Shown here: in pieces, positions 34,994 to 55,812 of the stretch
Position numbering within the stretch: position 1 is the first letter of the stretch
How the letters are laid out: each line of letters begins with the position of its first letter
Source of the DNA: a virus
Direction: 5' to 3' (one strand)
Virus record (IMG/VR): IMGVR_UViG_3300042945_003354
Span: 34,464-98,463 of that record
Length of the DNA stretch: 64,000 nt
The notes under the pieces: generated by a model
Databases searched by the model: none
The model's input: the letters and a program-made list of their open reading frames with translations, nothing else
What the model was told of the DNA's origin: nothing
Made by a program: the position numbers and the translations under genes

Positions 34994-36172
34994 TCAGATC
35001 AGTGTGAACGTCCCGTTGTCGAACACGGTAACGGTAGCGACAGTCTTTGCGGCAGGCACGGCCGTGATGTTCGGGTTGAAGCCGGGAGTGATGGTCAGCG
35101 GAGGCGATGTGACGCCGTTATATGTGACGGTCACGGTTGCGGTCGAACCCCTCCTGAACCACCAGTCCGCCTTGAGGTCCAGCACGGTTGACGTGGTCCA
35201 CGCTCCGGCCGTAAGGGCGTCCTCGGCGCTGATGTAATAGTCCTCGTGCCCGCCGGTCCATGGTACAGAGAAGTCCTGCCAGAGCATATACGCGGCAGAA
35301 ATACCGTTAGCATACCAGCCTAGTGTGTTACCCAGAAACGCAGTGCTGGTGATCAGGTCGTACCCGCCGGTCCATTCGTATTTAATCACCATGACTTCGC
35401 CGCAGTCCGTGCAGGGAGTGCAGCCCATCTCATTGTCACACCAGATGCCGCCGCCTGCGAAGACTGAACCTGCGTCCAACCATGCTCGACAGTCGTCGTA
35501 CGTCACCTCGATGTGCGCTAGAGATGTTACCGAAGGGCCTGGATCTGATGCAGTGACGGCGATGTTGCCCGAAAACACCAGCATCCCGCACGCATCTACG
35601 GCCTGCACTTCAAGCGACGTGTAAAGCCGGTCGAAGATGGTGTGAGTCCCGGACTGTGTACCGCTTGTATTTATGGCAGCGCCTCCCAACGTCGCGGATA
35701 ATTCAAAGGTATTTGCCGTCTTGTTCTTTACATAGTACCCTACATTTGCGGCCAAACCCGTTGGCAAAGAACCCGTGGTCTCGAAGGAGACGCGCCGGTT
35801 ATTGGCGTAGCCGTGACTGGCCTTTGATACCACGCATGGAGATGCGATGGTCATTGTGACCGTTCCTCCGGCGACCGCCGCGCCGTATACGTCTACCGTT
35901 GAACCGGCACCTAACACTGTGGTGATTTGCTCTGGTGCGCCTACTGGCGCTAGCACTGGCTCACAGCCATCGCCCGTAACAGGGTCGCTGAGGTTGGCTG
36001 GTAAGTAGCCGGGGGTTCCGGTGTATCCGCCAGTGATATACACATCGATCGGAAGCAGGATCGCAGGACCGCAGCAGCAACAGCCGGAGCTGCCGGAACC
36101 AGAGCCGCTACCAGAGCCGGAGCCGCTACTTGAGCTGACTGAACCGGATGACTTGGAGCTGCCGTAGCTCAT
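34994..36172 (-). CDS. Tail appendage protein with a Ser/Gly-rich CCCC leader
   Basis: A 392-residue protein. Residues 1-30 are almost only Ser and Gly, then SGCCCCGPAI. The rest is beta-rich with Ig-like segments (GGTVTMTIASPCVVSKASHG, TVTVTYNGVTSPPLTITPG) and a second Cys cluster MGCTPCTDCGEV. Such proteins often form fibres or decorate tails. The ATGA overlap ties it to the very large gene upstream, which has a matching Ser/Gly linker. Immediately downstream are glycosyltransferases that could modify the Ser-rich parts. Confidence 0.65.
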   Translation of the reverse strand: MSYGSSKSSGSVSSSSGSGSGSGSGSGSSGCCCCGPAILLPIDVYITGGYTGTPGYLPANLSDPVTGDGCEPVLAPVGAPEQITTVLGAGSTVDVYGAAVAGGTVTMTIASPCVVSKASHGYANNRRVSFETTGSLPTGLAANVGYYVKNKTANTFELSATLGGAAINTSGTQSGTHTIFDRLYTSLEVQAVDACGMLVFSGNIAVTASDPGPSVTSLAHIEVTYDDCRAWLDAGSVFAGGGIWCDNEMGCTPCTDCGEVMVIKYEWTGGYDLITSTAFLGNTLGWYANGISAAYMLWQDFSVPWTGGHEDYYISAEDALTAGAWTTSTVLDLKADWWFRRGSTATVTVTYNGVTSPPLTITPGFNPNITAVPAAKTVATVTVFDNGTFTLI

Positions 36173-39100
36173 TCAGGAGGGTAGATGGAGTTCAGGAAGT
36201 TTTCGTTGGCGTTAAACTGAGCCACGCTGCGCTCGGGCATGTTCATCCCGGCGAATCCGCGGCGAACGCCTGTCAGCTTCAATGTCACTTTGCTGGGTAA
36301 CTTTTTGTGCCACGGCTTCCACCAGCACGCAGTCGGCTCCGCCTCAATCACCAGATAAGCTCCTTCGATTCTCGCAGACATGTTCGCCGGGACATCAGGA
36401 TTGGGCTGTCCAGCGACTACGAGGCTGTTCGGCTCGCACACGAAACGATACCGGTGGTCCAGTTCGTATCTCGTGCGGCGACCAGTCAGGGGGATGTCCC
36501 GCAGCACGAACTCGAAGAGCACCTCGTTACTCTCCATGGTGAACAGCGCACCAAACTTCTTGGCGTGCCACGGCATCGGCACGATGGCGGTGGATTTGTC
36601 CGAGCCGCTGCCGCCAGTGCTGCCACCACCACCAGAGCCGCTGCCGCTGCCGCCAGTGCTGCCACCACCACCAGAGCCGACGCCGCTCCCTCCGCCGCTA
36701 CCAGAGTCGCCGCCGCCGGAGTCGCTGCCAGAGTCGCCGCCGCCGGAGTCGCTGCCAGAGTCGCCGCTGCCCACGCCGCTACCAGAGTCGCCGCTGCCGG
36801 AGTCGCTACCAGAGTCGCCGCTGCCGGAGTCGCTGCTGCTGCCATCAGGGCAGCATGTGTCGTGCAGGATGATCGGACCAGAGTGAGCCTGGCTTGTGAT
36901 GCTGCGCCATTTTCCAGCGCCCATGTCCGTGACATGATACGACCCGATGTAATACACCTCTGCCACGCCGGTTTGCCGCAGCGTTCCCACGAAATCAGTG
37001 CCCTTTTCGATGCCGAGGCGTCCCTTCTGGTTGGCGCCGCGAATGCTCTCGTAAGTCACGCCGGGATCTGCGGAGACGGTCAGGATCAATTTCTTCGCGC
37101 CGGACCCGCCTGAGCCGCTGGTAAACGATCCGTCGGGAGTGCACACCGCGTAAACGACGACGTGGCCACCGCCGGCCGCAATCGCCCGGTCCGTGACTTT
37201 CGCCGGTGTGATGCCATCGGGATCGTAGAGCGTGGCCTGGCTGAGCCCCAGCGGATGACACTCCGTCTCCGACTTGCCGACGACAGCCATCGCTGGCCCC
37301 GGCAACGAGAGGAGGTTGTCCGTGAACGTCAGCATGAAGTTGTGCGTGTCGCGGCATTCCAGCAGCGTCAGCAGCATCGTCTCCAGCGTCTGATCGGCAT
37401 CCCCAGTCGTCGCACCTTCCGTGATGACATCCAGAGCGGCGCTGCCTCCCCACGGTTTCTGGTTGGGCTGCGCGCAGGTTACGATGTGACGCGGCCACGC
37501 GATGTGTGTGCAGTCCAGCTGGCCTACCGCGGCGTTCCTGGCCTGCTCCGCCAGTCCGTGCGGATCGAAGGATTCCGCGACTCCCTCCGCGCAGTGATAG
37601 AATCCCCACGGGTCAGGCGCAGCCACAGTGTCGCCCTCCGCCGCTTTGTGGCAGGCCTTCACTGTCCCAGGCAGCCAGAGCGTGTCCGGATCTTCCTGGA
37701 CGCCGTCCGAAGCGGGTTCCGCCCACTGCTGCCCCCACTTCAACAGTCCGCCGTATTTGAACCTGGCGGGCATGCCTGGGCCGTGCCCGTCGTTCGGACC
37801 TGGATGCACGATGGCCGCAGCTGTGCCCATGTCTCCGTCAGGGTCGATCACGTTGTCACCGAGCACCGTCAGCTCGCAGTCATCAAACTGATCCGGCGAG
37901 AACACGATGGTGCCGCCTGACAGCGCGCACGCGTCGATGGACCGCGTGCTCAATTCGAGGAACCACTGATCCATGAACAGTTCGTGCTGCGTCTGATTCG
38001 ATTGCGTGCCGGCCAGATAAGAGGCGGTCGTGGAAGCGAAGTTCGGCGCCTCGTTGATCAGGTTCGGACGATCGTCCGGACGCGGCTCGCAGCAGGCCAT
38101 CTTGCACGCGACGAACATGCACGACAGCGCGGACTGACACAGCGTTGCGAGATCCGGCCACTGAAAATCTCCCTCGTAACCGTTCGCGACGTTCGGATAC
38201 TCCAGGCTGCTGATGAGTCCGCGCGGAAGCACGTTCGTGTGGACGGACCGCGTCAGGTCCAGCTTGACGGCCAGCGGACTTCCGCCAGGCGCATCCAGAA
38301 TCGACTGCGCGTCATCGGGGTCCGTTTGGTATTTGCCGGAGATGTCGACATCCGACACGGCGCCGCCCTGCTGGGACAGCAGCCCGTAAGTCTGCTCGGC
38401 GTCGCCCTGTTCATCCACGGAGCACGCGCACTGGTGCTTCGGCGAAATCCAGCTGCACGCCAGAAAACCAGCGCCATGCAGCGCGGCCTGCGCGTCGGCC
38501 TCCGCCTCGGTGCTGCCTACGAAAAGACCAGGCCAAACCCACACCTCGAACGCGGGGTTCACGTCGAGCGATTCCGTCGCATCCCCCAGATCCTGCAATC
38601 CTTTGTTGCAGCGCTCGTAGGCCGGCCCGCCGAAGTCGACCGGGTCTCCGCCGCGCAGCTCCTCATACATCGCCTGCCTTCCGTCTTCGTCGTTCTCGCG
38701 CTCGGGTATCACTGCAGCGGCACGCAGCGCCACGGCCGCGTTGCCGTAAGTCTCCGTCATGCACGAGATGACCCGCGGACGGTTCGGAAAAAAGCAGTCG
38801 AGTCGCGCCGCGGCCAAGTTGTAGGCGATGGCATTCGCTTCGTCCTGCGTGCGCGCCGCGGCGGTCGGCGTGTTCGCCGGCGTGACGGCGGTCGTGCGCA
38901 GGACGCGCAGCAGGTTACTCCCGACCTGAGACCGCAATTTGAACTCCTGCCCGTTCAGGTCGTTCAACGCGATCGATACCAAGTCGAACTCGAACGACTG
39001 CCACGCGTCCGGACTGTTCTCGCCACCCGCGGTGCCGATGGCCCCGGCCAGCGTCTGCATGTCGCTCGTTGTTGGATCGATGTTCGGAAGTGGCCACTCG

Positions 39101-40002
39101 GTCGGCCAGTCGATCAGCGTCGTCTCGTCGAGTATCTCCTCGGTGCCGCAGGTCGCCGTCTGCTCCGTGTTGCCGACCAGACATTGCAGATCAAAGGCAG
39201 CGTAAATGGCAGCCAGATTGTCCGCGTCTACCTGGCTGACCGTGGACTGATGCACTCCCGCAGCCACATACTCAAACTCATCGCCCGGCTCGGCGTAGAG
39301 AATCGCGTAGCCGGGATCCTCGGTGTCGCACACGACCCACATCTCACGGTTCCTCCATCCGCACACGATGCTTGCTTCAGCAGTCGCCTGGGCGATGTCG
39401 TCAGCCACGCCTTGCGCAATTACCAGCGCCTCCCGGATTTTCGTGGCGAGCAGCAGCGGCACTCCGACGAGGGCGACCAGTCCGTCGTCGAAATCCCCGA
39501 GGGTCGCGCCGCCGGTGCCGTTGATCGAGTCGATCAGATTTGCCGTCACGTAGGCCTGCAGAGCCTCGCTGTATGTTGCCAGCCGGAACAATTCGGACTG
39601 CGCGATCGCAGGCACGAGATCGTCGGGCGGCGGCAGCATGATGTCATCCAGGAACACCTCCTGAACCGCAGCGCCGGCGTCCACGACAAACGGATACGCG
39701 GCCCCGCTCAGCTCGACCTGTCCCTCTGCGCACAGCGCTGTGGCTTCCTGGCTGTAGATAATAATCGCATCCGGCAGCAGATCAGGATCTGCAGGCACAG
39801 CAGGCGGCAGGTTCGGCGGGCTGAATACAGCCTTCGGCGTCGCCTCCGGCTCGTCGCACTTGCCGGCTGGCGCCGCCGGAGTCGTGTCCGGGGTGAGTGT
39901 GACGACGTCCGCTGCGCAAGGCGTCGCGCCGCGGACCCGTGCCCGCTCTGCGAACAGACGGGCGGCGCTCGATGCTGAAGTGTCCTCGGGTTCCAGTGGC
40001 AT
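36169..40002 (-). CDS. Very large Cys-rich virion protein with a Ser/Gly/Asp linker
   Basis: A 1277-residue protein, the largest in the window. The first 1000 residues contain many Cys pairs (SCMFVACKMACCEPRP, FLACSWISPKHQCACSVDE), unusual for a cytoplasmically assembled virion protein. A linker of about 85 residues made of SDSGSGDSGS repeats (coded at 36590-36850) joins a C-terminal beta domain (TAIVPMPWHAKKFGALFT). The linker resembles spacer segments in surface-exposed proteins. A tail fibre or receptor-binding role is inferred from size, position and composition. No family recognised. Confidence 0.65.
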   Translation of the reverse strand: MPLEPEDTSASSAARLFAERARVRGATPCAADVVTLTPDTTPAAPAGKCDEPEATPKAVFSPPNLPPAVPADPDLLPDAIIIYSQEATALCAEGQVELSGAAYPFVVDAGAAVQEVFLDDIMLPPPDDLVPAIAQSELFRLATYSEALQAYVTANLIDSINGTGGATLGDFDDGLVALVGVPLLLATKIREALVIAQGVADDIAQATAEASIVCGWRNREMWVVCDTEDPGYAILYAEPGDEFEYVAAGVHQSTVSQVDADNLAAIYAAFDLQCLVGNTEQTATCGTEEILDETTLIDWPTEWPLPNIDPTTSDMQTLAGAIGTAGGENSPDAWQSFEFDLVSIALNDLNGQEFKLRSQVGSNLLRVLRTTAVTPANTPTAAARTQDEANAIAYNLAAARLDCFFPNRPRVISCMTETYGNAAVALRAAAVIPERENDEDGRQAMYEELRGGDPVDFGGPAYERCNKGLQDLGDATESLDVNPAFEVWVWPGLFVGSTEAEADAQAALHGAGFLACSWISPKHQCACSVDEQGDAEQTYGLLSQQGGAVSDVDISGKYQTDPDDAQSILDAPGGSPLAVKLDLTRSVHTNVLPRGLISSLEYPNVANGYEGDFQWPDLATLCQSALSCMFVACKMACCEPRPDDRPNLINEAPNFASTTASYLAGTQSNQTQHELFMDQWFLELSTRSIDACALSGGTIVFSPDQFDDCELTVLGDNVIDPDGDMGTAAAIVHPGPNDGHGPGMPARFKYGGLLKWGQQWAEPASDGVQEDPDTLWLPGTVKACHKAAEGDTVAAPDPWGFYHCAEGVAESFDPHGLAEQARNAAVGQLDCTHIAWPRHIVTCAQPNQKPWGGSAALDVITEGATTGDADQTLETMLLTLLECRDTHNFMLTFTDNLLSLPGPAMAVVGKSETECHPLGLSQATLYDPDGITPAKVTDRAIAAGGGHVVVYAVCTPDGSFTSGSGGSGAKKLILTVSADPGVTYESIRGANQKGRLGIEKGTDFVGTLRQTGVAEVYYIGSYHVTDMGAGKWRSITSQAHSGPIILHDTCCPDGSSSDSGSGDSGSDSGSGDSGSGVGSGDSGSDSGGGDSGSDSGGGDSGSGGGSGVGSGGGGSTGGSGSGSGGGGSTGGSGSDKSTAIVPMPWHAKKFGALFTMESNEVLFEFVLRDIPLTGRRTRYELDHRYRFVCEPNSLVVAGQPNPDVPANMSARIEGAYLVIEAEPTACWWKPWHKKLPSKVTLKLTGVRRGFAGMNMPERSVAQFNANENFLNSIYPPE
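36590..36850 (-). repeat. Low-complexity Ser/Gly/Asp-coding repeat tract
   Basis: A 36-base unit is repeated exactly at 36605-36640 and 36644-36679 (offset 39), followed by several copies of a gap-variable unit encoding SDSGSGDSGS or SDSGGGDSGS. The tract codes for the linker of the 1277-residue protein and is a likely site of length change by slippage. Confidence 0.8.
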
Positions 40003-42917: not shown

Positions 42918-45900
42918 TTATTTGGGACTTTTTTCGACGTTGCCGGTTACCAAGATGTTGCCGTTTACGACAATCTGCGTCGTGGTTGTGCCGCCGTTTT
43001 CCTCGACAGCCTGATTCATGAATTTGCGCTTGGCAGCCTCCAGCTGCCTTTTTGCGTCAGCGATGAGCACGTCGTGAGGCTTACCTTTATCATCCTTGAG
43101 ATCGAAGGTCGTCTTCCCGGCATCTTCTGCCTTCTGGAGTTGCTTCAGCTGCGCGTCGATCTTGTTGACCATCTCCCCGCCCTCGTTCAGATGTCCAAGT
43201 GCTTTCATTTCATCTTTGGTGGCCATACCGATCCGCTTGGTCATCGTCATCATATTGTGGAGTCCGCCGCCTTCAAACTCGGCCTTCTTCCCGCTGAACC
43301 ACCCGCCCGGTTTGAAGTTGACCGCCTCAAACGCTGACAAATTCGGCGCTTCGCCTTTCGCGATTGATGTCATGAGGGAAGTCTGCAAGTCGTCGTCCAG
43401 ACCCATGGCCTGAGCGAGCATTTTTGCGGCGCCCTGACGCTGCCCAATCTTGTTGAGCTCTGCGGCGCCGGACTCCTTGGCAGAATCCGTTATGGCTGTC
43501 ATTCCGCCCCTGCCGTCCGCGTCGAGCCCCAGCGTAGGATCACCAGTCAGATTCATCCCCAGGTATTTTTTGTCTGTCTGCATCAGCTTGATGGCGTCGG
43601 CCCGCAGATTCTTATCCGTCACGGTGGCAGCCATCAGATCCTTCATATTCTCAAACCCCATCGCCTTGGAAATATCGATCTCCTTGCCGTGCACCTTGGA
43701 CAGCTGCGCCATTCCTTTTTCGGTCAGTCCATTGCTGAAATCAATGCCGGTCTCGTATTGCGAATCCGCAGCGACGAGCTTGCCGTCCTTGTCCAGCACT
43801 TGCGGCATCTTTATGCCTTCTTTTTTCATGGCTTCGAGCATCAGCACCATCGATTCGGGATCGCTGACGCCGCCCTTCATGCCCCCAGTCGCAAGCGCCG
43901 TCGCGATGCTGTTGAACGAGATGCCGCCATCTGCAGCAGAGAGCCGCCGACGGGAGGACGCCGCTCCAAGCATTTCGAGTCTGTTCTGTCCCGACTCGGC
44001 CTGCTCAAATACGGACATGCCGGGCTCGTAGTTGGCGTCGTTCAGCATGCTCACGGCCTGGCCGAATGCCTTCTCGTCCTTCACCTGCCCGTTCTTGTCG
44101 AAGAACTGGCTCATGAACTTATCCGCCGCGGCGCCAGTCACGCCGGCCTTCTTCAGGACGTCGCGCTGCATACTCGCACGGTCCGCCCCGGTGATCAGAT
44201 CCGTTTTGGACGGCTTTCCGTCCGGGCCGATTCTGGCGGTCTGCTTGGACAGGTTCAGCATCTGCCCCAACCCGCCGGTCCCCAGGTTCTTCAACATGGT
44301 CTCGCTGACGGCGTCCGCGTCTTTTACTCCGCTGCCCTCCAGGTAATTGGTCAGCATATCTGTGTCGATGGCATCCAACCGTTCCGCGGCTGCCTGTTTT
44401 TCCATGGCGCGAGCTTTCGCAGGGTCCTTGTATGCCTTCGCCAGCATGCGTTTCCCGGTGAGCGAGGATGTCAGCTCATCGAAGCCCGCTTCATTCCCGG
44501 GACGTCCGGCGGCTGATGCCAGCAGGCTTCGCATCTGCTGCTCCAGATTGTAGCGCGTCCCTGGGTCCTTTTCGCTGTCGAATTGCTGCAGCAGATCCTC
44601 GGCGTCCTTGCGTCTCGCTCCAGACAGATTGTCCATCCCGCCCCTGGCCATAGTCATCCCCTGATACTTGTCCAGGTATTGCAAGCGGCCCTCCTTCTTG
44701 TCTTCGTAAATTTCCTCGAAGGTCTGCGAGTCGGCCATATCCACGCCGAGCGATCTGCCCAGCATCACAGCACGGTTGGACTGCTGGTAGGCGATGGCCG
44801 AGTCGCCCATGATCTGGTTGTGGATGTTCGCGTTTATTCCGGTGACCAACGAGCTGTGCCGCCCGTCCGCTCCGATGACGCCAGCCACTTGCCCGCGCAT
44901 GGACGCCTGCATGTCGCTAGACCAGTCCATGAACGCACGAGGATCCATGCCGCTGATCACTGCTGCGCCGCGCAGTTGCGCCACCTGGGCGGATGCTTGC
45001 GCCGCCTGCTCTCGGTTGGTAATTTTCATGCCGGAGATGGACTCCAACTTCTGCTGCAGCTCCGGCGCCGACATCTCCTGGTAGACGTCCGCGAGTCCCG
45101 CCAGTCCGGCAGTGATGTCCTTCACGACTTGTCCGACGCGTCTGACCTCGTCCTTGTTCCCGATGAGCGCGTCGGGCGACTTGATCACCGCCTTGACTTC
45201 TTTCTGCAGCTTTTTGTCCCCTGTGGCGTCTGCCATCGCCTGCAGTTCTTCGGCCTGCTTTTCCGGTGAGAGGTCCTTGTTGACGCTGAGCTTGGCCAGC
45301 CCAGCCCGCAGGTCGGGACTCACGGCGTTGTCGGCCGCGGCAGACAACCGGGTCTGCAGGTCGGCGTTCTGCTGCAGGTGCGCGACGTGTCCGATGCCGC
45401 CGCGCTGTGCGAGCGTCTTGAACACGCCGGAAACTTCCTGCGAGTTGAAGCCGTGCATGCGGCTGGTGTCCCCGGTGCCGCCATACATGTCGCTCATGAT
45501 CTTCTTCATGAACGTCGCCGAGACATGCTCAGCGACGGCCCCGGAACCGCCTACGCGCCCGATCCCGTATTCTCTGCCCCCGGATCGTCCGGTGCCGCCG
45601 ATCGACATACCAAAGCCGCCGCCAGCCACGCCTTGCGCAATGTTGGCCGCTGCGGTGATCGGATCCCCTTGGCCAATCATGCCGGTGGTGCGCATCAGCA
45701 TGGCAGCATCCATCGCCATCTGCCCAGATGTGGACTGGAACATTGCGCGACGCACCTGGTCGGGGCCGGCGCCGGACATGCCATGCTGGAGGCGCACGAT
45801 CCTCTCGGCTGCGGCCAGCGCGACTGGGTCGGTGAGCGCCGCGGCGCGCGCCATCTGCGCGGTCATGTGCAGGTTGCGCTGCCGCTGCTGATGCTCCGCG

Positions 45901-45974
45901 GCCGTCGGCGCTCCGCCGGTGCCGGTAGGTCCGTAACCAGTCCAGTCTATTGGGTTGCGGTCGTAAGGGTTCAA
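42918..45974 (-). CDS. Tape measure protein
   Basis: A 1018-residue, overwhelmingly helical protein with Gly/Ala-rich N-terminal segments (GVAGGGFGMSIGGTGRSGGR) and long charged helices. The C-terminal TTTQIVVNGNILVTGNV resembles the ends of other tape measures. It comes straight after the -1 frameshift chaperone pair, the hallmark neighbour of tape measure genes. The protein sets tail length and is ejected with the DNA. Fewer obvious membrane segments than usual. Confidence 0.85.
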   Translation of the reverse strand: MNPYDRNPIDWTGYGPTGTGGAPTAAEHQQRQRNLHMTAQMARAAALTDPVALAAAERIVRLQHGMSGAGPDQVRRAMFQSTSGQMAMDAAMLMRTTGMIGQGDPITAAANIAQGVAGGGFGMSIGGTGRSGGREYGIGRVGGSGAVAEHVSATFMKKIMSDMYGGTGDTSRMHGFNSQEVSGVFKTLAQRGGIGHVAHLQQNADLQTRLSAAADNAVSPDLRAGLAKLSVNKDLSPEKQAEELQAMADATGDKKLQKEVKAVIKSPDALIGNKDEVRRVGQVVKDITAGLAGLADVYQEMSAPELQQKLESISGMKITNREQAAQASAQVAQLRGAAVISGMDPRAFMDWSSDMQASMRGQVAGVIGADGRHSSLVTGINANIHNQIMGDSAIAYQQSNRAVMLGRSLGVDMADSQTFEEIYEDKKEGRLQYLDKYQGMTMARGGMDNLSGARRKDAEDLLQQFDSEKDPGTRYNLEQQMRSLLASAAGRPGNEAGFDELTSSLTGKRMLAKAYKDPAKARAMEKQAAAERLDAIDTDMLTNYLEGSGVKDADAVSETMLKNLGTGGLGQMLNLSKQTARIGPDGKPSKTDLITGADRASMQRDVLKKAGVTGAAADKFMSQFFDKNGQVKDEKAFGQAVSMLNDANYEPGMSVFEQAESGQNRLEMLGAASSRRRLSAADGGISFNSIATALATGGMKGGVSDPESMVLMLEAMKKEGIKMPQVLDKDGKLVAADSQYETGIDFSNGLTEKGMAQLSKVHGKEIDISKAMGFENMKDLMAATVTDKNLRADAIKLMQTDKKYLGMNLTGDPTLGLDADGRGGMTAITDSAKESGAAELNKIGQRQGAAKMLAQAMGLDDDLQTSLMTSIAKGEAPNLSAFEAVNFKPGGWFSGKKAEFEGGGLHNMMTMTKRIGMATKDEMKALGHLNEGGEMVNKIDAQLKQLQKAEDAGKTTFDLKDDKGKPHDVLIADAKRQLEAAKRKFMNQAVEENGGTTTTQIVVNGNILVTGNVEKSPK

Positions 45975-46366
45975 AATAGCGGTTTGGATTTCTCCTCGGT
46001 GTAGTGAGCGTCGAGCGCGGAGAAGATACCAGACTTCTCTGCAATTTGGTAGAGCTGATAAAGGGACACCTCGTCTTTCGTGCTGCGCTTGAGTTTTCCG
46101 GCGATTTGATCAGCCACTTTGTAGATGTCGAACATCCGCAATTCGCTCGCGCGCACCAGCCGCGTGTTCGACTTGTTGATCGCATCGTTCAGCCCCTTCT
46201 GGTTGAGCACCGGGATCAGTGCCAGGTCCGCCGCGATGGACGCCTGCATGTTGCTGGCGATCATCTCGGACGTGAGCACCTCGATCACGATGTCTTCCGT
46301 GACGACGGAACGCTGACCGAATTTATGAGCAGGACGAAGAAGGCCGCGCAGATACGCGACTACCAT
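45971..46366 (-). CDS. Tail assembly chaperone, downstream (T-like) frame
   Basis: A 131-residue frame starting MVVAYLRGLLRPAHKFGQRS. Its ATG overlaps the stop of the upstream chaperone by one base, and the frame stays open upstream through a T7 slippery run, so it is most likely expressed as the C-terminal part of a frameshift fusion of about 417 residues. It ends in an ATGA overlap with the tape measure gene. The family binds the tape measure during tail assembly. Confidence 0.72.
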   Translation of the reverse strand: MVVAYLRGLLRPAHKFGQRSVVTEDIVIEVLTSEMIASNMQASIAADLALIPVLNQKGLNDAINKSNTRLVRASELRMFDIYKVADQIAGKLKRSTKDEVSLYQLYQIAEKSGIFSALDAHYTEEKSKPLF

Positions 46367-47223
46367 CAGTCGGTAGCGGCCCCAGTAAAAAAAGATCGGT
46401 TTTTCCAGTTCTGCAGGCAGACCTTGTATTTGAATTCCGCCGTGCGGACCGCATCCAGCAGCATGCGCCAGCGCGCCGCGCTCATGCGAAAGAAAGGCTC
46501 AAACGAGTCGTGCTCGCGCATCCGCTTCCGTATCGCGCTCAGTGGAGGCATGCCATCCACCCAGAAATCCGACCACGCAGTGGGCTCCCCATTGATCGCC
46601 CGCACTTGGTACCACGCGTGCATCTGCTGGAACGCCAGCAGCCATTGCAGGTCGCTGTCCTTGTCAATGTGCCCGTCGCGGCCCCACTGGTTGACCGCGG
46701 CTGATGCGCTGGTGGTGAATTCGTCCGGCGCCATGGCGATCTGCACCGTCGCCTGCAAGCCGTCCAGTTGGATGTCGAAAATCAACTCGGTGTCGTGCAT
46801 GGCTGCGCGGACGAACGCATCCCGGTCTGCGCCCGTGACCTGCACCTTCATGTCCCCCACTTCCAGCTGGAACCTGCGCTCCATCTCATCCTGCAGCCGG
46901 TCCGTCGCGCTCATCATCATGTTCGGATTCCGCAACTGCGTGACATCGTCTGTCGGCATCGGAGGCGGCGCCACGCCGTCCTCTTTCTTCTTCGCGTCGA
47001 TCGCGTCCTGTTCTGGCTTGTGATCGAACGGATCCACACCGCCGAGCGGGAGGGTTGCCTTCAGTTGCCCTCCGTCGACGACCACTTTGGGCGCGGTCGG
47101 ATCTTCTGCCTCGTCGACGCGCTGAGCGTCCGGAGCCGGATCCTCTACGACGGTTCCGAAGATACTCTGAAATGGTGGCGATTTAGGATCTGCTGGTTTG
47201 GTGTCTGCTGGTTTGTCGGACAT
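46366..47223 (-). CDS. Tail assembly chaperone, upstream (G-like) frame
   Basis: A 285-residue protein. The N-terminal half is Pro/Asp-rich and disordered (MSDKPADTKPADPKSPPFQS); the second half is a helical fold (LAFQQMHAWYQVRAINGEPT). The last codons contain TCT TTT TTT ACT, a classic place for a -1 shift. The fold and position between the spike and the tape measure match the G chaperone, made in excess over the fusion GT. Longer than most G proteins because of the disordered N-terminus. Confidence 0.75.
   Translation of the reverse strand: MSDKPADTKPADPKSPPFQSIFGTVVEDPAPDAQRVDEAEDPTAPKVVVDGGQLKATLPLGGVDPFDHKPEQDAIDAKKKEDGVAPPPMPTDDVTQLRNPNMMMSATDRLQDEMERRFQLEVGDMKVQVTGADRDAFVRAAMHDTELIFDIQLDGLQATVQIAMAPDEFTTSASAAVNQWGRDGHIDKDSDLQWLLAFQQMHAWYQVRAINGEPTAWSDFWVDGMPPLSAIRKRMREHDSFEPFFRMSAARWRMLLDAVRTAEFKYKVCLQNWKNRSFFTGAATD
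46387..46393 (-). other. -1 frameshift slippery site (T7)
   Basis: Seven T residues on the minus strand arranged T TTT TTT relative to the zero frame. Slipping one base back keeps perfect anticodon pairing and continues TAC TGG GGC CGC TAC CGA CTG ATG into the downstream frame without a stop. It lies 21 bases before the zero-frame stop codon. Confidence 0.8.
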
Positions 47224-47235
47224 GCGGTTTTGTGT

Positions 47236-49833
47236 TTAGGGTTGGACTTCTTCCTGACGCTTGAGAGCCTTCATGACAGCATTCGTCGTGGGGCGCCACT
47301 CAATGTTGACGTCGTCGAACGATGACGCCGCGCTGGAGGACGGCACGTGCAGATTCTCGCCCGTGTCCGATGCGCGGTAAAGAATCTCGTGATACCCGAA
47401 CCCGCCCGACTCGCGGATGCGCGTTCCGGTCACAGACAGGCGCAATCTCCAGTCCGCGTAGCCAGGACCTCCCCATCGGTCAGGCGGTCCCATGTCGGCA
47501 TCGAGGCGCAGATACTGTTGCGTCAGCGTCTCAGGCACCCCTGCGGCGGTTTTCTCGCGGTTGTTCCAGACATACTCATCCCGAGACGGGAAGCCCCACA
47601 GCGGGCCGCCTGCGGAGCTAGTCCACGCCAAGTCCGGCGCTGCGGATGAAAGGGCAGCAGCCTCAGCCAGCAGTATCCGCTGCGCCGCCGACGCTCCAGC
47701 AGGCGTCGCCGGCGGCGTGTCGTCCACGAACGCGTCAATGTGATTCAGATGGTTCTTGAGCTGCAGCGTGGGCTGCGAATCCGGGATCGGAATGATGGGT
47801 CCGCGCTTGGGTCCAGTGATGCGATTGCCTTTGATGTCGTCCGCTTGCAGATTATTGCACCACACCAGTCCATTGCGCAGCACCAGGTCCGGGATGGTCG
47901 GGTTCGGTCCCACGATGACCTCGCTGGAACTCGCCAGGAGCGTCTGCGTTGCGATGACCACCTGACTGCCGCCTGCCACCCTCACTGTCGACGAAGACCG
48001 TAAGTCAGCGCCCGTCTTGCCCCGCAAATCGAGAGCGCCGTTCGTGGAGACCACCAAGCCGTCCGAGCCGTCCACGACGACAGCCATCCCCAGTTCCGAG
48101 CGATACGCGGAACGGCCGGCCGCCGCTTCGCTCAGGATGGCGAACCCGTGCTTCTCGCCCTGCACCCTCCCAGCTACTTCCGGCGCAGGCATGCCGAGCG
48201 ACGCCGGCTCTGGCGCGTCCCCATCCTTGTCGGTGACCGCATTCGAGCGGAGCCACAGCGTCCCTTTCTCGCAGAGCATCTTCAGCCAGGCGTAGCTGTG
48301 CAAAATGAGTCCTCCAAACGTCGCAGAAATCTCGATGCAGCGGCGGGCTTTCATGTAGATGCTGCCGCCGCTCACCATGCGAATGTCGCCGGCCGCTTCG
48401 AGGTCGATGTGCTTCGCCGCGCTGATCTGCACGTTGCCGTTGCTCATCACGACAGACGACCCGTAGCCGTCGTGCATCACAATGGAGCCGTCGCGCATGA
48501 TCGTGAAGCAGGCGTAGGCATCGTAGTAGAGAACCTTCTGCTCCGGGTCTTCGCCCTCGCCCTCCGGCGTGTAATTGGCACGTCCGTTCGCCTCGTCGCG
48601 ATCGCTCTCGAGATTTCGCCAGTCGGGCGTGGGCGACGCAGCCTCCGAGGGGATCGCATACTCAGTGTCCTGCTGCAGCATCCGCGCGAACGCGTGATAC
48701 CGACTCAGCCACCTCGAATAGCTGCGGATGTGGTAGGCAGCCTGGTACATGTCCTTCTCGTCGACAGGCTGAATGGCGGACGGCAGCTTCAAAAATGCCG
48801 CCGTCAGTTTGTCATACTCGCGCTCCTTGGTAATCGCAGGGTCTTCGTGGTGGGCGATTCTGACAGGCACCGGGATGCGCGTGGTGCGCTCGATGCGGAT
48901 GTCTGCGACCGACTGGATGATGAGCGATCCGTCGCTGTTCCGGTGTATCCAGTTTTTGCCTGCGCCGGATTTGGCTGTGCTTGCACCGAGCGACACAATC
49001 GCCCGCGGCGGGTCAGACACGAAGCTGTGAATGAAGTCACCGGCGAACCCCAGAAATTCCTTGAAGCGCATGCGCCCGAGTCCGGTGACGCGACGCTCTT
49101 CCAGCTTCGTCCGGTCAACCTCGTCGCCGTTCATCTCCGCGAACGGTTCCTTCTCTTTTTCGATCCCGAGCACCTCGTGCCTGTAGGATGACCAGGACCG
49201 TTCCATGGTGGGGCGTCCGTGATCGTAAATCAGATCCTCGCCGAGCCCGCTGATGTGGCGATACTGCGCGGAGATGACGCGTACCATGTCGTTGATCAGA
49301 TGACACTCGACGACCGCTCTGTCGCTCGCCTTCATGCGGATCAGCGTGGTCAGGAATTCCAGCGCGATGCCGAACATGTTGGAAATCTCAACCTCGCCCT
49401 CGATCATGTCCTCCGCGTGATCGGACACGACGTTCCCGGTGACTCCCTCCGCTGCGTCTGTCGCCGGCCCCCACAGCAGCGAGCGGCTGCGTGCATTCAA
49501 CCAGTCGACGCTGTGCTCCGGCAGCACTTGCGTGATGAACGTCGGGGCGCCGTAAGCGATCTTCACGCGAGTCAGCGGCGGCAGGTTGCACCGGAGCTGA
49601 AGGCCGAACAACCCTCCCAGCACTGGCAGCGCCAAGCGCACGCCGCTGATCTCCTGTCTTGGATCCTCTGTCGTGACGTGATACGTACCGTCGATCTCCC
49701 TAGCCCGCACCGTGGCCGTGTAAAGCGCGCCGGGGGTGAGACGCTCGGACATGATGGCGCCAGTGGCCTGCGCGGTCCTCGAAGGATCTACGTCTGGAAA
49801 CCCGTCCCCCGGTTTTTCTGTGCTTATGGCCAT
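47236..49833 (-). CDS. Baseplate central spike / VgrG-like protein
   Basis: An 865-residue protein. An N-terminal OB-like region (TPGALYTATVRAREIDGTYH) is followed by a helical middle. A long repeated beta-helix comes next (IMRDGSIVMHDGYGSSVVMS, then VQISAAKHIDLEAAGDIRMV), with DG/SNG turns characteristic of membrane-piercing spikes (gp5, gpV, VgrG). The C-terminal 150 residues form an extra domain. It sits between tube and chaperone genes, an unusual order. Contractile tails drive such spikes through the host envelope. Confidence 0.72.
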   Translation of the reverse strand: MAISTEKPGDGFPDVDPSRTAQATGAIMSERLTPGALYTATVRAREIDGTYHVTTEDPRQEISGVRLALPVLGGLFGLQLRCNLPPLTRVKIAYGAPTFITQVLPEHSVDWLNARSRSLLWGPATDAAEGVTGNVVSDHAEDMIEGEVEISNMFGIALEFLTTLIRMKASDRAVVECHLINDMVRVISAQYRHISGLGEDLIYDHGRPTMERSWSSYRHEVLGIEKEKEPFAEMNGDEVDRTKLEERRVTGLGRMRFKEFLGFAGDFIHSFVSDPPRAIVSLGASTAKSGAGKNWIHRNSDGSLIIQSVADIRIERTTRIPVPVRIAHHEDPAITKEREYDKLTAAFLKLPSAIQPVDEKDMYQAAYHIRSYSRWLSRYHAFARMLQQDTEYAIPSEAASPTPDWRNLESDRDEANGRANYTPEGEGEDPEQKVLYYDAYACFTIMRDGSIVMHDGYGSSVVMSNGNVQISAAKHIDLEAAGDIRMVSGGSIYMKARRCIEISATFGGLILHSYAWLKMLCEKGTLWLRSNAVTDKDGDAPEPASLGMPAPEVAGRVQGEKHGFAILSEAAAGRSAYRSELGMAVVVDGSDGLVVSTNGALDLRGKTGADLRSSSTVRVAGGSQVVIATQTLLASSSEVIVGPNPTIPDLVLRNGLVWCNNLQADDIKGNRITGPKRGPIIPIPDSQPTLQLKNHLNHIDAFVDDTPPATPAGASAAQRILLAEAAALSSAAPDLAWTSSAGGPLWGFPSRDEYVWNNREKTAAGVPETLTQQYLRLDADMGPPDRWGGPGYADWRLRLSVTGTRIRESGGFGYHEILYRASDTGENLHVPSSSAASSFDDVNIEWRPTTNAVMKALKRQEEVQP

Positions 49834-49929: not shown

Positions 49930-50373
49930 TCAGGCCGTGCGCATGCTGGCGGTCCTGATGGTCGCGCCCTGCGTGATTGTCTGTCGTCCTGTGGAGAGGT
50001 TTGCAGTGAGCTGCTCGACGATGGCGCCGCTGAAGAACAGCGAGCCCTTGCCCTCGAACTGGCACTGCCCGCCTTGAATCTGGATGCTGGCTGTGTCGAT
50101 CTTGCCGCACGCGGCTTGCCAGTCGCGGAAGAATCCTTCGGAGCCGACGAGCGAGCCCATGGTGATGCTGCCTTGCGGGCGACCCGGCAGCCAGAAGATC
50201 TGCGTTGATCCCACCTGGGTGATCTCCTCGATCTGCTGCCTGTATGAGACGTCCACCGACTGAACGAGCGAGTTCTTGCCGCCGCCCGCCTTTACGGAGA
50301 TTCGGGCGAAGTCGGAGGACGCGATCTGTCCGCTGGTTTTGATGTTGTTGTCGTAGCTGAAGACATCCTTCAT
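49930..50373 (-). CDS. Tail tube protein
   Basis: A 147-residue, beta-rich protein starting MKDVFSYDNNIKTSGQIASS. The centre (VSYRQQIEEITQVGSTQIFW, then PQGSITMGSLVG) has the strand order and RPQGS-type turn of contractile-tail tube subunits. It directly follows the sheath gene, the standard order. Hexamers stack to form the inner tube. It is followed by a strong terminator, consistent with high expression. Confidence 0.8.
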   Translation of the reverse strand: MKDVFSYDNNIKTSGQIASSDFARISVKAGGGKNSLVQSVDVSYRQQIEEITQVGSTQIFWLPGRPQGSITMGSLVGSEGFFRDWQAACGKIDTASIQIQGGQCQFEGKGSLFFSGAIVEQLTANLSTGRQTITQGATIRTASMRTA

Positions 50374-50406: not shown

Positions 50407-53250
50407 TTAGGTATTGTCGGCGCTGGCGAGCACCTCGGCCACGCCCACGTCGATGTAGTGGTTGATGCCGTTGAGCGGCAGCGGCACGCGCAGCTTGACG
50501 TAGGTCATCAGCGTGTCGGCCAAGTCGCCGTCCTGGCGCACGGTCACTTCGCCTTCGTTGCCCTTCTCGTCGAAAAATGTCATCACGGGCGGTCCGATGT
50601 CGACGTTGGCGAGCTCGACCTGCGTGAAGTCGGTGGCCAGTGCCTTGAGCTTGTCGTCGATTTCCGCGATGGTGTCCGGAGTGGCATTGCGGCGTCCGAC
50701 ATAGCGCTTGAAGGCGTCCTTCTCAGCGTAGCCGAACTCGTCCACGATGACGCCGACGTTGTCCTCGTATGCCAGCGCGCCCTCTTCGGTGCCGGTGGTG
50801 AGCTGATGGCGGATGAAGACGTCGCCGCCTTCGGATTCCTGCGTGACGATGAAGGTGCCAGCCGATGCGACTCCGTCGAGATCCGCGGGGTCGAATGACG
50901 TGAACATGGACGGCGCGGCTTCCACGGAGGTCACTTCGGTCATCGTCAGGCCCTGCTGCGGCAACAGCGCGCAGCGGAGGCCGGCGATTTCGGCCGCCAG
51001 GAATTTGGCAGGAAGAACAACGGTGACGCCGTTCTCGGTGACAGTCGGATTGTCGCACCAGACGTTGCTGATGCGGCGCGAGCCGAGTTTCACACTGCGC
51101 GCCTGCACGTAAAGCGCAGTGTTAGCCGGCGTGTCCGCGCGCGTCAGGATGAGGTTCGAGTTCGACACCGTCAGCACATCCGCGGCATCAGTCAGCACTT
51201 CGAAGTCGGACAGCACTTCCAGAATTGTGTAAGTCTGCCCCACGGATTGCAGCGTGATCGTGGAGCCCACGTCCGTCGCTGCAAACTTCCACGCGCTGCG
51301 GAATGCCGCATCCAGAGTCACTACCGAGGATGCTAGGTCGCCGGTGCGGTAACCGCCGCCGGTGAGTGCGCCCCACTGGACGTAAGTGCCGGGTGAGTCG
51401 GTGCCGATGTAGGCACGCCGGAAGTTCTTGTTGAACTTGTTCGACATGGTCGTGCAGTGGTCGCGCAGCAACTCCATGACGGCTTCGCTGTCGGTCATGC
51501 CGGCGAGTGCGTAGACGCGGTCCGTAGTCTGGATCTTGCGCAGCGCTGTCGTGAAATCCGCCACGGTGTCGCCACCGGTGCGCAGCGCGTAGACCACGCG
51601 ATTCTGATTTCCGGTAAACGCTTCGAGCGTGCCGCGTCCGAGCCAGTTCTCGATGCTTGTCTCGCCGACCTTCGTGACGATATCCACGTCGCGGTTGATC
51701 TCGATCATTGTCTCCCCGGCGAGCGGGATCACCAGTGCCTTGAAGGACAGGTAGACGGATCCGTAGCCGCCGGCAAACAGGCTGAAGTCTGAGCCGTTGC
51801 GTCCTGTCGCGGTGCTCGGCAGTCCCAAGTCTGCGGCATAGTCCCAGTCTGCCGCGTTCGCAACGAGCGCAGCGTCAACGCCCGCTGTGTTGGTGTCGTC
51901 CAGCAGCCCGCTGTAGGGTTGGAACACCGTAGTGGAGGTGAACGTGATGCTACTCGCGCCGCCGGCCGCTGCGACTTCCGCAGACGGCACCGCGGGTCCG
52001 TCCAGCAGCAGGCCGTCGAATTCCGTGGTGGACGCCGCGGCTGCGACGCAGTCGATGTAGAAAATCTGACCCTTCGCGAAGCCGCCGATCGTTGTCGGGT
52101 TAAAAATCAACCCCGAGGTCCCGATGTCCAAAGCCGAGCCCGCGATGGCGTCCGTGTATGCCACTGTCGGGTCTCCGCCGGTCACGTCGTAGACTTCCAC
52201 GTCGATATCCGTGGCGCCGCGCTCCGTCACCTCGATCGCGTATCGGCGGTCCACGGTGCCCGTGTAGGTGCCGGTGACAGCGAGTTGTGTGTCGGTGTTT
52301 GGTGCGAACACTGGCTGCAGGATCACGCGGATTTTATTGCCGGCGACCATGGCGGATGCCTTCGTGAGAATCACGTCAGTCGCGCCTGCGTAGCCAGCGG
52401 TGGTCAGGTCGATGGAAAATTCAGTCCCGCCGCCGCCCGCCGCAGACGTCACCGGACTCGGCGTGGTGATGCCGGTCGCCAGGGAGGTGACATTGAACGT
52501 AGCGACGGTGTTGGCGCCGCCTACGACACAGGTGAAGTCCAGCACATCGCAGAGCTGGTAATCGCTGCCCACGAGATACACCTTGCCGGCGCCCTTGAGC
52601 ATCGCGACGTCGGTGGCGTGAATCGTCGGCGGTGTCACCACGTCCAGCCCGGATGTGGTGTTCGCGCTGACTTTGACCGCCGCCGCGGTGGCGAGGGCGA
52701 CCGGGTTCAGCAAGCCGACAGCCGTGTCGTCATACGAGGACGCCGTCACTTTGCCAAGAAGGCCGACCACCTTGCGGCGTGTCGTACCGGTGGGTGTGCC
52801 ACCATCCCAATCGCTGGAGATGATGTCGCCGATGCTGATCGGGCGCCCGTCCAGCCCGGTGTTCAGCGTGCCAGCGCCAGCGAGATCGTCAGCCGGACTG
52901 CGCAGGGTGCGGAAAGTGGTGTCGTTCTCGTCCAGCGTCCAACCGTTCGGTGCGCCGGTGAACGTGGCCACCAGAGCCTGCAGCCCGGAGCCATACAACG
53001 CCGCTGTGGCGTTCTGCGGCTTGAGCTCAGTCAAATCCAGCGCCACACCTTTCGTGTCAGTGTAGAGGTTGTCTGTCGCGCCGGCAGAATCGAAGTCGAG
53101 ATACGCACCGGAGAGATCGCGCCCGTCGTTGAGGTAAAGGTTGAACTGCGGACCGATGACGATTGGATTCCTGCGTGACGTGGTGCGCACAGCAGTCTGC
53201 CTCAGGATCTGAGTGATGGTGTCTTGAGGACGAACGTATGGAGTGATCAT
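50407..53250 (-). CDS. Tail sheath protein (large)
   Basis: A 947-residue protein. The C-terminal half is sheath-like: VVYALRTGGDTVADFTTALR, then YALAGMTDSEAVMELLRDHC, and a last domain RRNATPDTIAEIDDKLKALA. The start MITPYVRPQDTITQILRQ has the short linker used in sheath meshes. Typical sheaths are 400-660 residues; here several Gly/Thr-rich beta domains (about residues 150-450) make up the excess, probably surface decoration. Contracting the sheath drives the tube through the cell envelope. Confidence 0.8.
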   Translation of the reverse strand: MITPYVRPQDTITQILRQTAVRTTSRRNPIVIGPQFNLYLNDGRDLSGAYLDFDSAGATDNLYTDTKGVALDLTELKPQNATAALYGSGLQALVATFTGAPNGWTLDENDTTFRTLRSPADDLAGAGTLNTGLDGRPISIGDIISSDWDGGTPTGTTRRKVVGLLGKVTASSYDDTAVGLLNPVALATAAAVKVSANTTSGLDVVTPPTIHATDVAMLKGAGKVYLVGSDYQLCDVLDFTCVVGGANTVATFNVTSLATGITTPSPVTSAAGGGGTEFSIDLTTAGYAGATDVILTKASAMVAGNKIRVILQPVFAPNTDTQLAVTGTYTGTVDRRYAIEVTERGATDIDVEVYDVTGGDPTVAYTDAIAGSALDIGTSGLIFNPTTIGGFAKGQIFYIDCVAAAASTTEFDGLLLDGPAVPSAEVAAAGGASSITFTSTTVFQPYSGLLDDTNTAGVDAALVANAADWDYAADLGLPSTATGRNGSDFSLFAGGYGSVYLSFKALVIPLAGETMIEINRDVDIVTKVGETSIENWLGRGTLEAFTGNQNRVVYALRTGGDTVADFTTALRKIQTTDRVYALAGMTDSEAVMELLRDHCTTMSNKFNKNFRRAYIGTDSPGTYVQWGALTGGGYRTGDLASSVVTLDAAFRSAWKFAATDVGSTITLQSVGQTYTILEVLSDFEVLTDAADVLTVSNSNLILTRADTPANTALYVQARSVKLGSRRISNVWCDNPTVTENGVTVVLPAKFLAAEIAGLRCALLPQQGLTMTEVTSVEAAPSMFTSFDPADLDGVASAGTFIVTQESEGGDVFIRHQLTTGTEEGALAYEDNVGVIVDEFGYAEKDAFKRYVGRRNATPDTIAEIDDKLKALATDFTQVELANVDIGPPVMTFFDEKGNEGEVTVRQDGDLADTLMTYVKLRVPLPLNGINHYIDVGVAEVLASADNT

Positions 53251-53937: not shown

Positions 53938-54794
53938 GGGAGTGTGTCCGGCGTCCAGTGAGCAATGCGGCGATATGCCTTGGTGTCGATGACCGGCAGC
54001 GGAAACTGGTATCGCTCGTCCGACTGATTCAGGTGCTCGAGCGTCGCGTCGTAAGCGACCGGCAGCACACTGCGGAAGCGATACGGCTTGATCTCGTCGC
54101 TGATCAAGTAACGCACGTCTGTCGTGGGATCCACGAGCATGTGCCCGCGGGCCGGATGCGGAAATGCCATGAGCCGGGCAGAGACCCTGAGCGTGTCTGC
54201 CGGCGAGAATTCCTCCGGATCATCCTTCAGCCCCTCGCCGTGCGCCGTGATGCTCATCCACGTGAGCACCGGCCGGTAAAAGCCGCCCTGAAATGCCATG
54301 CCGTAGGAACGCAGCGCGGGGTCCTCGACCGCGCACTCGCCTCCCTCCTTCTTGCCGGTGTCCGGGTCTGTCGCCAAGGACGGCGTGCCGAACTCGCGCG
54401 GGATGCAGTGCCACACAGGGAACCCGTTCACGACTCTCATCTGCGTGAATTCCTGGTGGATCATGGCGCGGATGATGCCGTATTCGCGCCGCGTGATGTC
54501 GCCCATGATCTGGAACGGCTCGGACAAAAAATCGCCGACCGACGCGATCAGCAGCAGCCGGTAAAATCCCTCGGCCGAGCCTTTGTTCATGAACAGCGTC
54601 GCGTCCTGATACACTCCCACGCCGGAGGCAACGGGCGCGTCCGGATTGAGTTCTTTCCATGTCCCCTGCGTGCCGGTGGTCGAGAACGCGGCATACACGT
54701 TCCCCGCGGGCGCGTCGGACGCCATCTCCCAGGTGATCGCAGCGTTACGCGTTCCGTGGTTCGGATAAATGCGGACGTTGCGGAATACGCTCAT
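53934..54794 (-). CDS. Head-tail connector/neck protein
   Basis: A 286-residue protein starting MSVFRNVRIYPNHGTRNAAI. The N-terminal half is an Ig-like beta domain with GFYRLLLIASVGDFLSEPFQ. The second half has SARLMAFPHPARGHMLVDPT and DVRYLISDEIKPYRFRS, beta strands of the sort that form stopper or neck rings. ATGA overlaps both sides. Family not identified. Confidence 0.6.
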   Translation of the reverse strand: MSVFRNVRIYPNHGTRNAAITWEMASDAPAGNVYAAFSTTGTQGTWKELNPDAPVASGVGVYQDATLFMNKGSAEGFYRLLLIASVGDFLSEPFQIMGDITRREYGIIRAMIHQEFTQMRVVNGFPVWHCIPREFGTPSLATDPDTGKKEGGECAVEDPALRSYGMAFQGGFYRPVLTWMSITAHGEGLKDDPEEFSPADTLRVSARLMAFPHPARGHMLVDPTTDVRYLISDEIKPYRFRSVLPVAYDATLEHLNQSDERYQFPLPVIDTKAYRRIAHWTPDTLP

Positions 54795-55393
54795 TGCGAC
54801 TTAGGCAAGCCGAGGCTGTCGATGTGTTGCGCGGCCTGTTCGTATGGGTCAGATGACGTCTGCGCTGCGGTCGCGGCAGGCGCCCCTGTCGGAGCTGGCT
54901 TCTCACCCTCTCCCGTTAGATAGCCGCCAGCCATACCTCCGAACCCGGCAGTCATACCGCCGGCAAGGAGTTTACCGCCTACCCCGGCTCGCTCCACGGC
55001 TTTTCCGGTTTGCATGGCTTTGATCACGCGGGGAGTTGCATTGGCCGCAAGACGAGAAGCTCCTCCGAAGAAGCCTTTGGCGGTTGACGCGACGCCTGGC
55101 AGAAACGACAGCGCCCCCCATCCGAGGTTGCTGACGCCCGACCAGAAGTTGCCGTTCGAAAAATCCTTGACCGCCTTGTAGCCGTAGTAAGGGACGCCGG
55201 TGACAGGATTCGAACCGGCGGCTATATCCAGCGCCAACTCGCCAGTGTCACCCCATGTCCACCCTTTGCTGGGTGCGCCCGGCGCGACGGGCTGCGGCGC
55301 GCGGCCAGGCTGATACATCGGCGCGAACGGAAACGGCTCCGTGTTTGCGGCTTTCACCATCGGATCCAATAGAGCAAATGGCGTCGGTGTCAT
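54791..55393 (-). CDS. Virion-associated protein with a Gly-rich hydrophobic segment
   Basis: A 200-residue protein starting MTPTPFALLDPMVKAANTEP; the start is fixed by the ATGA overlap with the upstream stop. Gly/Ala-rich segments (GVGGKLLAGGMTAGFGGMAG) look able to enter a membrane, as in ejected internal proteins. A similar Gly-rich style recurs in the proteins at 55816 and 61745, suggesting a set of ejection proteins. Confidence 0.6.
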   Translation of the reverse strand: MTPTPFALLDPMVKAANTEPFPFAPMYQPGRAPQPVAPGAPSKGWTWGDTGELALDIAAGSNPVTGVPYYGYKAVKDFSNGNFWSGVSNLGWGALSFLPGVASTAKGFFGGASRLAANATPRVIKAMQTGKAVERAGVGGKLLAGGMTAGFGGMAGGYLTGEGEKPAPTGAPAATAAQTSSDPYEQAAQHIDSLGLPKSQ

Positions 55394-55812
55394 CCTACGG
55401 CCCCCCATGCGCCTTCGAGGTTGGCGGTGACCTTCAAGTTCGTTGCAGCTTCCATAAATTCCGCCTCCAGTTTGTCGCGCAGGCGTTCGAGGTTCCTGAG
55501 CAGCGATCCCTGCACGCTGGCGTTGACGCCGCCGGCAGCGTAATCGAAATCGTTGATGCTCACGTTGCCGTGCCACCGGCGGTAGAGCGCCCACGCGATA
55601 CCGTCGAAGAACACCGAGGAGTTGATCGGCAGTTTGTCCGACGTCACCTCGAAGCCCAGCGGTCGGATGGAGTTAAATTTTCGCGCACACTTGCTCATCG
55701 CCCACTCGATGTCAGGATCAGTGAACGCCAAGTCTGCGAGCACCAGGTGGTCCTCCGCCTGGCGATCCATCATGTCCTCTCGGACGTCAGCGATAGCGAT
55801 GTAGCTAGCCAT
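55390..55812 (-). CDS. Head-tail adaptor protein
   Basis: A 140-residue helical protein starting MASYIAIADVREDMMDRQAE. The helix-rich pattern with LADLAFTDPDIEWAMSKCAR and EAEFMEAATNLKV matches small adaptors that sit under the portal. Position between head and tail modules supports it. No direct family match seen. Confidence 0.6.
   Translation of the reverse strand: MASYIAIADVREDMMDRQAEDHLVLADLAFTDPDIEWAMSKCARKFNSIRPLGFEVTSDKLPINSSVFFDGIAWALYRRWHGNVSINDFDYAAGGVNASVQGSLLRNLERLRDKLEAEFMEAATNLKVTANLEGAWGAVG

Follow-up and report, generated by a model that had tools for sequence, protein, structure and literature searches.

On the minus strand of the DNA examined here (the window, a 64,000-nt stretch forming part of a 98,463-base virus record; all coordinates follow window numbering), two genes meet at a TGATG junction, and the first of them carries a run of seven T shortly before its stop codon. 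The genes of this strand come in the order protease-like, major head, 222-aa protein, sheath, tube position, spike-like, G-like, T-like and a 1018-aa ORF. The main features are given below, where "the relative" is L004 (IMG/VR 3300042888_002988, 200 kb), the sole independent relative found.

46366..47223, minus strand: 0-frame ORF from the ORF list, G-like short product of 285 aa; 65% identical to its counterpart in the relative
46387..46393, minus strand: candidate slippery heptamer T_TTT_TTT in the 0 frame; identical in the relative
46367..46387, minus strand: bridge YWGRYRL, read only after a -1 slip; its first base is the heptamer's last T, re-read
45971..46366, minus strand: -1-frame ORF from the ORF list, T-like, 131 aa; its ATG overlaps the upstream TGA (TGATG)
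46341..46382, minus strand: predicted hairpin, starting 3-4 nt past the heptamer
42918..45974, minus strand: ORF in tape-measure position, 1018 aa, TTG start; named by position and length only
47236..49833, minus strand: spike/VgrG-like protein, 865 aa, weakly supported; weak matches around residues 447-513
49930..50373, minus strand: protein in tail-tube position, 147 aa, next after the sheath; relative 82% identical
50407..53250, minus strand: tail sheath, 947 aa, by similarity to Salmonella phage Arash gp236

The position of the pair fits the G/GT arrangement, with the sheath identified, the tube and tape measure named by position or length, and the spike-like gene intervening. The window's sheath has no direct Pfam or PHROG family match and is recognized through Arash gp236, to which it is 23.6% identical over 46% of its length (E 2e-16) and which itself matches the PHROG tail sheath at E 6.8e-10. 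PHROG matches also mark, on the same minus strand, a 322-aa major head protein (E 4.3e-6), a 488-aa protein weakly resembling a head protease (E 1.6e-4) and the 222-aa protein, whose only match, to a tail terminator, is weak (E 0.067). The 865-aa protein matches DUF2345 at E 7e-4, under Pfam's cut-off, a baseplate PHROG at E 0.047, and PDB entries at E 0.31-0.5, one of them named Gp5. Neither the 147-aa protein in tube position (no convincing match) nor the 1018-aa ORF (no family match) was placed by Pfam or PHROGs; the relative of the latter is 1004 aa long, 50% identical and begins with ATG.

Elsewhere in the window, a 1277-aa protein at 36169-40002, with no convincing Pfam match, has a long Gly/Ser/Asp repeat towards its C-terminus and is perhaps a tail fibre or adhesin. 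The chosen gene chain has a 595-base gap (54795-55389) between a 140-aa and a 286-aa gene, covered by a GTG ORF of 267 aa at 54791-55594. The longest homopolymer of the window is an A8 run at 60421-60428, which falls within the protease-like gene of 488 aa, read on the minus strand as CTC AAA AAA AAT ATC, and is a possible slippage site.

Reading frames at the junction

In the 0 frame the minus strand reads AAC CGA TCT TTT TTT ACT GGG GCC GCT ACC GAC TGA TGG, with the heptamer spanning codons 277-279 of the 285-codon ORF, six sense codons ahead of the stop. The upstream TGA (46368-46366) and the downstream ATG (46366-46364) overlap by one base; this ATG is the first ATG/GTG/TTG of the downstream -1 frame, which is open from the slip site onward. 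After a -1 slip the reading would be TCT TTT TTT TAC TGG GGC CGC TAC CGA CTG ATG (SFF-YWGRYRL-MVV). A first-pass annotation had placed the T7 run as T TTT TTT in the upstream frame, derived a fusion of 279+7+131 residues and set the pair just ahead of the tape measure. All of this is borne out: the heptamer lies at 46393-46387 on the minus strand, translation through a -1 slip yields ...NRSFF-YWGRYRL-MVVAYLRG... (279 + 7 + 131 = 417 residues), and the 1018-codon ORF in tape-measure position comes next.

The same annotation described the first 100 residues of the G part as disordered. Residues 1-100 of the 0-frame protein are Pro/Asp/Glu-rich (17 P, 20 D+E), with hydrophobic residues at 20/100 positions vs 62/185 in the remainder, and their identity to L004 is 55% vs 68% and 74% elsewhere. 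Composition and lower conservation fit the claim and fall short of proof, the structure model being of low confidence throughout.

Slip sites of this form are scarce in the module. The 24 minus-strand ORFs that we chose as genes (10,333 codons) hold seven in-frame XXXYYYZ heptamers including the T7, and the sole T7 heptamer among them sits near the stop of a gene that is followed by a gene in the -1 frame. TTT accounts for 82 of 341 Phe codons in this set, and runs of at least seven identical bases number three in the 64 kb. A second IMG/VR record, 99.995% identical over 19,054 bases with one mismatch, has the same T run, so an assembly error is unlikely (its sample may be linked to that of the window).

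Comparison with the independent relative

Relatives were sought with exact short peptide or DNA patterns, a search that more distant relatives may escape. Scans of viral contigs reached two contigs only, one near-identical to the window and the other the independent L004, and genome contigs scanned with short exact patterns gave no relative; every comparative test below therefore has n = 1. More distant phages were reached through the structural proteins: the capsid protein search found Arash and three Vibrio phages, the sheath search Arash only, and the major capsid protein is about 28% identical to those of both Salmonella phage Arash and Vibrio phage D69. Profiles of two rows each, built for the two chaperone halves, detected both IMG/VR records and nothing in the whole Arash and D69 records, where tape-measure and tube profiles, run without a positive control, likewise found nothing. 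Because these searches were blank, no distant phage was usable for the slip site.

In L004, bridge and T half together have a counterpart with 68% identity across 138 aa, and the T7 heptamer, the TGATG junction and all seven bridge residues are kept. The 0-frame protein ends TGAATD in the window and TGADTD in L004, with the TGA stop kept in both. These observations bear on one alternative, in which a single gene was broken in two by a plain frameshift mutation, by phase variation or by faulty assembly. A homopolymer at the break is what such an event would leave; the run length is nevertheless equal in the window, in the near-identical record and in a relative some 65% identical, and the 0-frame tail and its TGA are retained. 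This explanation is thereby largely refuted, and we rate it as extremely improbable.

The slip site also stands out from its surroundings. Across ten aligned genes, in-frame XXXYYYZ heptamers occupy seven places in either phage, and only the T7 site is kept. The seven downstream-frame residues that precede the start are 7/7 identical here vs 0-3/7 at six other junctions; the two true overlaps among these six, both of 4 nt, agree at 2/7 and 3/7 residues. The junctions of the tail terminator and of a 493-aa gene, which the strings used did not locate in L004 or L007, are left out of this count. Agreement of the -1 frame farther upstream (13/15 codons before the start) was not taken as support, because there the DNA is held similar by conservation of the 0-frame protein.

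Across the 40 bases from TCTTTTTTTACTGGGG to TACCGACTGATGGTAGTCGC, the window and L004 differ at two positions, and both fall in a single -1-frame codon of the bridge (CGC to AGA, Arg in both). In the 0 frame the same two bases give one silent change and an Ala to Asp replacement. Of all double substitutions in the bridge, 106/1890 (5.6%) preserve the seven -1 residues; among the 773 that make at most one change to the 0-frame peptide, 23 (3.0%) keep the -1 peptide. Being silent in the -1 frame, the change favours coding in that frame ahead of the ATG, on the strength of one codon, and such coding is not needed by re-initiation.

Synonymous sites point the same way. Conserved Phe residues in the ten aligned gene pairs keep TTT as TTT in 6/24 cases, two of which are this site. 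Against a codon-specific background, the heptamer codons TCT TTT TTT are kept 3/3 (expected 0.84, nominal P 0.017) and codons 277-285 together 7/8 (expected 3.0, nominal P 0.002). Codons 280-285, from slip to stop, show mild retention only when taken alone (4/5, nominal P 0.07), T codons 1-7 nothing beyond chance (4/6, nominal P 0.22), and the flanks no excess (5/10 for codons 265-276, 2/9 for T codons 8-20). When overlapping segments of the ten-gene block are ranked by excess synonymous retention, the four best of 4424 segments of 14 codons all lie at the junction, as does the best of 4406 segments of 16 codons; with 9-codon segments the junction is second of 4469 and the sheath start first.

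The main competing account of the pair is translational coupling, in which ribosomes stop at the TGA and restart at the overlapping ATG, making two separate proteins, with the T run incidental. TGATG is a classic re-initiation layout and is kept in L004, and in GeneTack a stop and a start at the same place are regarded as a mark of coupling (PMC3711429). Other starts, the sheath start among them, also show synonymous constraint. Coupling would put no downstream-frame constraint on the stretch from slip site to start; YWGRYRL is instead identical at 7/7 residues in the one phage pair available, and the low agreement before the comparable 4-nt overlaps shows no such pattern. Since the bridge would be non-coding under coupling, both it and the conserved heptamer codons go unexplained, and we consider coupling as the whole account unlikely. 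The first-pass reading of a programmed -1 frameshift, by comparison, gains support from the kept heptamer, the 7/7 bridge and the high rank of the synonymous constraint, all from one independent relative.

An extra U added by RNA polymerase slipping on the T7 run would produce the same fusion from an altered mRNA. The motif is a homopolymer run, and the extra U gives TCT TTT TTT TAC, making the product identical letter for letter. Programmed transcriptional realignment, however, is described as often using homopolymers of at least 8, or two shorter runs combined (PMC3711429), and a length of seven in phase matches the ribosomal heptamer in both phages. We regard polymerase slippage as very unlikely.

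Predicted downstream hairpin and translation starts

A hairpin is predicted downstream of the heptamer, at a spacing of 3-4 nt in the window and of 6 nt in the relative. L004 has exactly the same inner stem of six pairs (46372-46357), whose loop contains the ATG, and a different pairing in the outer part. Covariation was rejected as support, since the inner stem shows no base changes and the outer pairs lack homology. Ranked by folding energy among local windows, the 44-nt segment falls in the lowest 1.3% for the window and 11% for L004, the 46-nt segment at 2% and 15%, and the 60-nt segment only at 19% and 27%. Shuffled sequences folded as well in 23/200 and 24/200 cases at 68 nt, and in 66/200 and 134/200 at 98 nt, for the two phages. 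As structural evidence the predicted hairpin is suggestive only. No Shine-Dalgarno-like stimulator is visible on direct reading of the 20 bases before the slip site.

Start codons were taken from ORF lists, some of them compared with relatives, and 21/22 head and tail genes (34994-63890, minus strand) lack GGAG, GAGG, AGGA or GGGG at 4-18 nt before the start. Such a 4-mer is present in one of the 22 alone, the T ORF (GGGG, 13 nt ahead of the ATG). When duplex energies were compared for 20 genes, the T ORF came second lowest with -4.7 kcal/mol, after a 269-aa gene at -5.1. An AGGAG lies 18-22 nt ahead of the TTG start of the 1018-aa ORF. The leaders of these minus-strand genes are in many cases A/C-rich, several with CC before the ATG, which suggests a host that initiates translation without Shine-Dalgarno sites. 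The argument that the T ORF has no ribosome-binding site, and must hence be reached by frameshifting only, was dropped because other genes of the phage are without one too.

Given the GGGG and the duplex energy, lack of a ribosome-binding site is no objection to a start at the T ORF, and the placing of its ATG within the loop of the conserved hairpin could lend itself to coupled initiation. A free downstream protein made through re-initiation at TGATG is thus possible as an additional route, and GeneTack lists seven clusters where frameshifting and coupling may both occur (PMC3711429). A single hairpin might then serve two exits, the T7 slip leading to the fusion and the TGA stop with a restart at the ATG in the loop leading to a free downstream domain, giving three proteins in a fixed ratio in a lineage seemingly without Shine-Dalgarno sites; we put this forward as a rather doubtful extension of the frameshift reading.

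Proposed tail-chaperone function and known systems

With a probability of roughly 0.8, we favour the view that a large phage with a contractile tail here carries a tail-assembly chaperone gene of the G/GT type, whose fusion product would arise by a ribosomal -1 slip. Searched directly, the 0-frame protein has no Pfam, PHROG or PDB match, and the T half has matches at noise level only (Pfam E 0.084, PHROG E 0.25, PDB E at least 0.56). Nothing was found by tblastn against 50,697 phage records with the 0-frame and bridge+T proteins, nor against phage records with the spike-like and tube-position proteins. The structure models are of poor quality, the T half reaching a mean pLDDT of 52.6 and the 0-frame protein one of 40.5. 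Because neither half matches a family, the chaperone role is argued from position, from recoding and from the observation that known tail chaperones have little sequence in common (PMC5009743).

Under the ribosomal-slip reading, most ribosomes would follow the 285-codon frame to the TGA and make the short protein. A minority would pause with two tRNA-Phe on U_UUU_UUU, perhaps aided by the downstream hairpin, and slip back one base, yielding the fusion of 417 residues. If assembly proceeds as in lambda, the tape measure would be covered by numerous short copies, with tube protein recruited through the downstream domain of the few long ones; the lambda G/GT ratio is about 30:1 and matters for assembly (PMC5009743). 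Frameshifting of 6-7% has been measured for two phage tail-chaperone genes (PMC3711429). U_UUU_UUU slips less than A_AAA_AAG in E. coli (PMC5009743), which counts against the frameshift reading. The sequences themselves establish how the genes are laid out, that one relative has conserved this layout, and that there are signs of constraint in the -1 frame; the ribosome as slipping agent, the efficiency of the slip, the effect of the hairpin and the chaperone function are what we infer. The tail proteins of this phage group match almost no family, and gene calling alone would leave two unrelated hypothetical proteins here; the frameshift offers grounds for naming a tail chaperone and a tape measure in a group with contigs of 184 and 200 kb.

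The gene order of the window resembles that of P2, where sheath, tube, E/E' and T follow one another, with a spike-like gene added; P2 E has 91 aa, vs 285 aa for the window's short product. The operon order itself is F I, F II, E, E', T (PMC3931495). P2 E/E+E' (FETUD) and the P2-like Smp131 resemble the window in a contractile tail, a frameshifted pair before gene T, a -1 slip on a T run and a downstream ORF with a possible start shortly past the slip (PMC3931495). Poly-T sites described for such chaperones are T6G in P2, a predicted T7G in Smp131 and T7C in related prophages (PMC3931495). In the window, by contrast, the T7 precedes an A, the tube position and the chaperone pair are separated by a spike-like gene, and the proteins gave no sequence-family match.

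Lambda has a non-contractile tail, a slip sequence (GGGAAAG) that differs from the window's T7, and a G protein of about 140 aa, whereas the window's short form is longer at 285 aa. Alike in lambda G/GT is the encoding of a short and a -1-frameshifted long form ahead of the tape measure (PMC5009743). SPP1 17.5/17.5* likewise has a putative -1 slip site (UUUUUUC) directly ahead of a tape measure of 1032 aa, and forms of 173 and 297 aa (PMC6316719); SPP1 differs in being a siphophage, in its shorter short form and in the Z base C. In the TAC-N/TAC-NC chaperone genes of Vandenendeviridae and Andersonviridae (Pseudomonas phage Adele), myophages as well, the short gene also closes with a T-rich slip motif, GTTTTT (PMC12846349); this motif has five T, and its comparative support is larger, with 56 alleles from 159 genomes (PMC12846349).

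From the comparison with one relative, a -1 frameshift of the same kind as lambda G/GT, P2 E/E+E' and SPP1 17.5/17.5* is well supported in the window as a conserved feature. The slipping trick itself is well known in phages and the lineage is new. With one independent relative as its base, the pair is an ordinary member of the G/GT kind, real and conserved, in a poorly known phage lineage, and it adds a plain U_UUU_UUU case to the tail-chaperone poly-T slip sites, in a phage with almost no Shine-Dalgarno sites among the tested genes.
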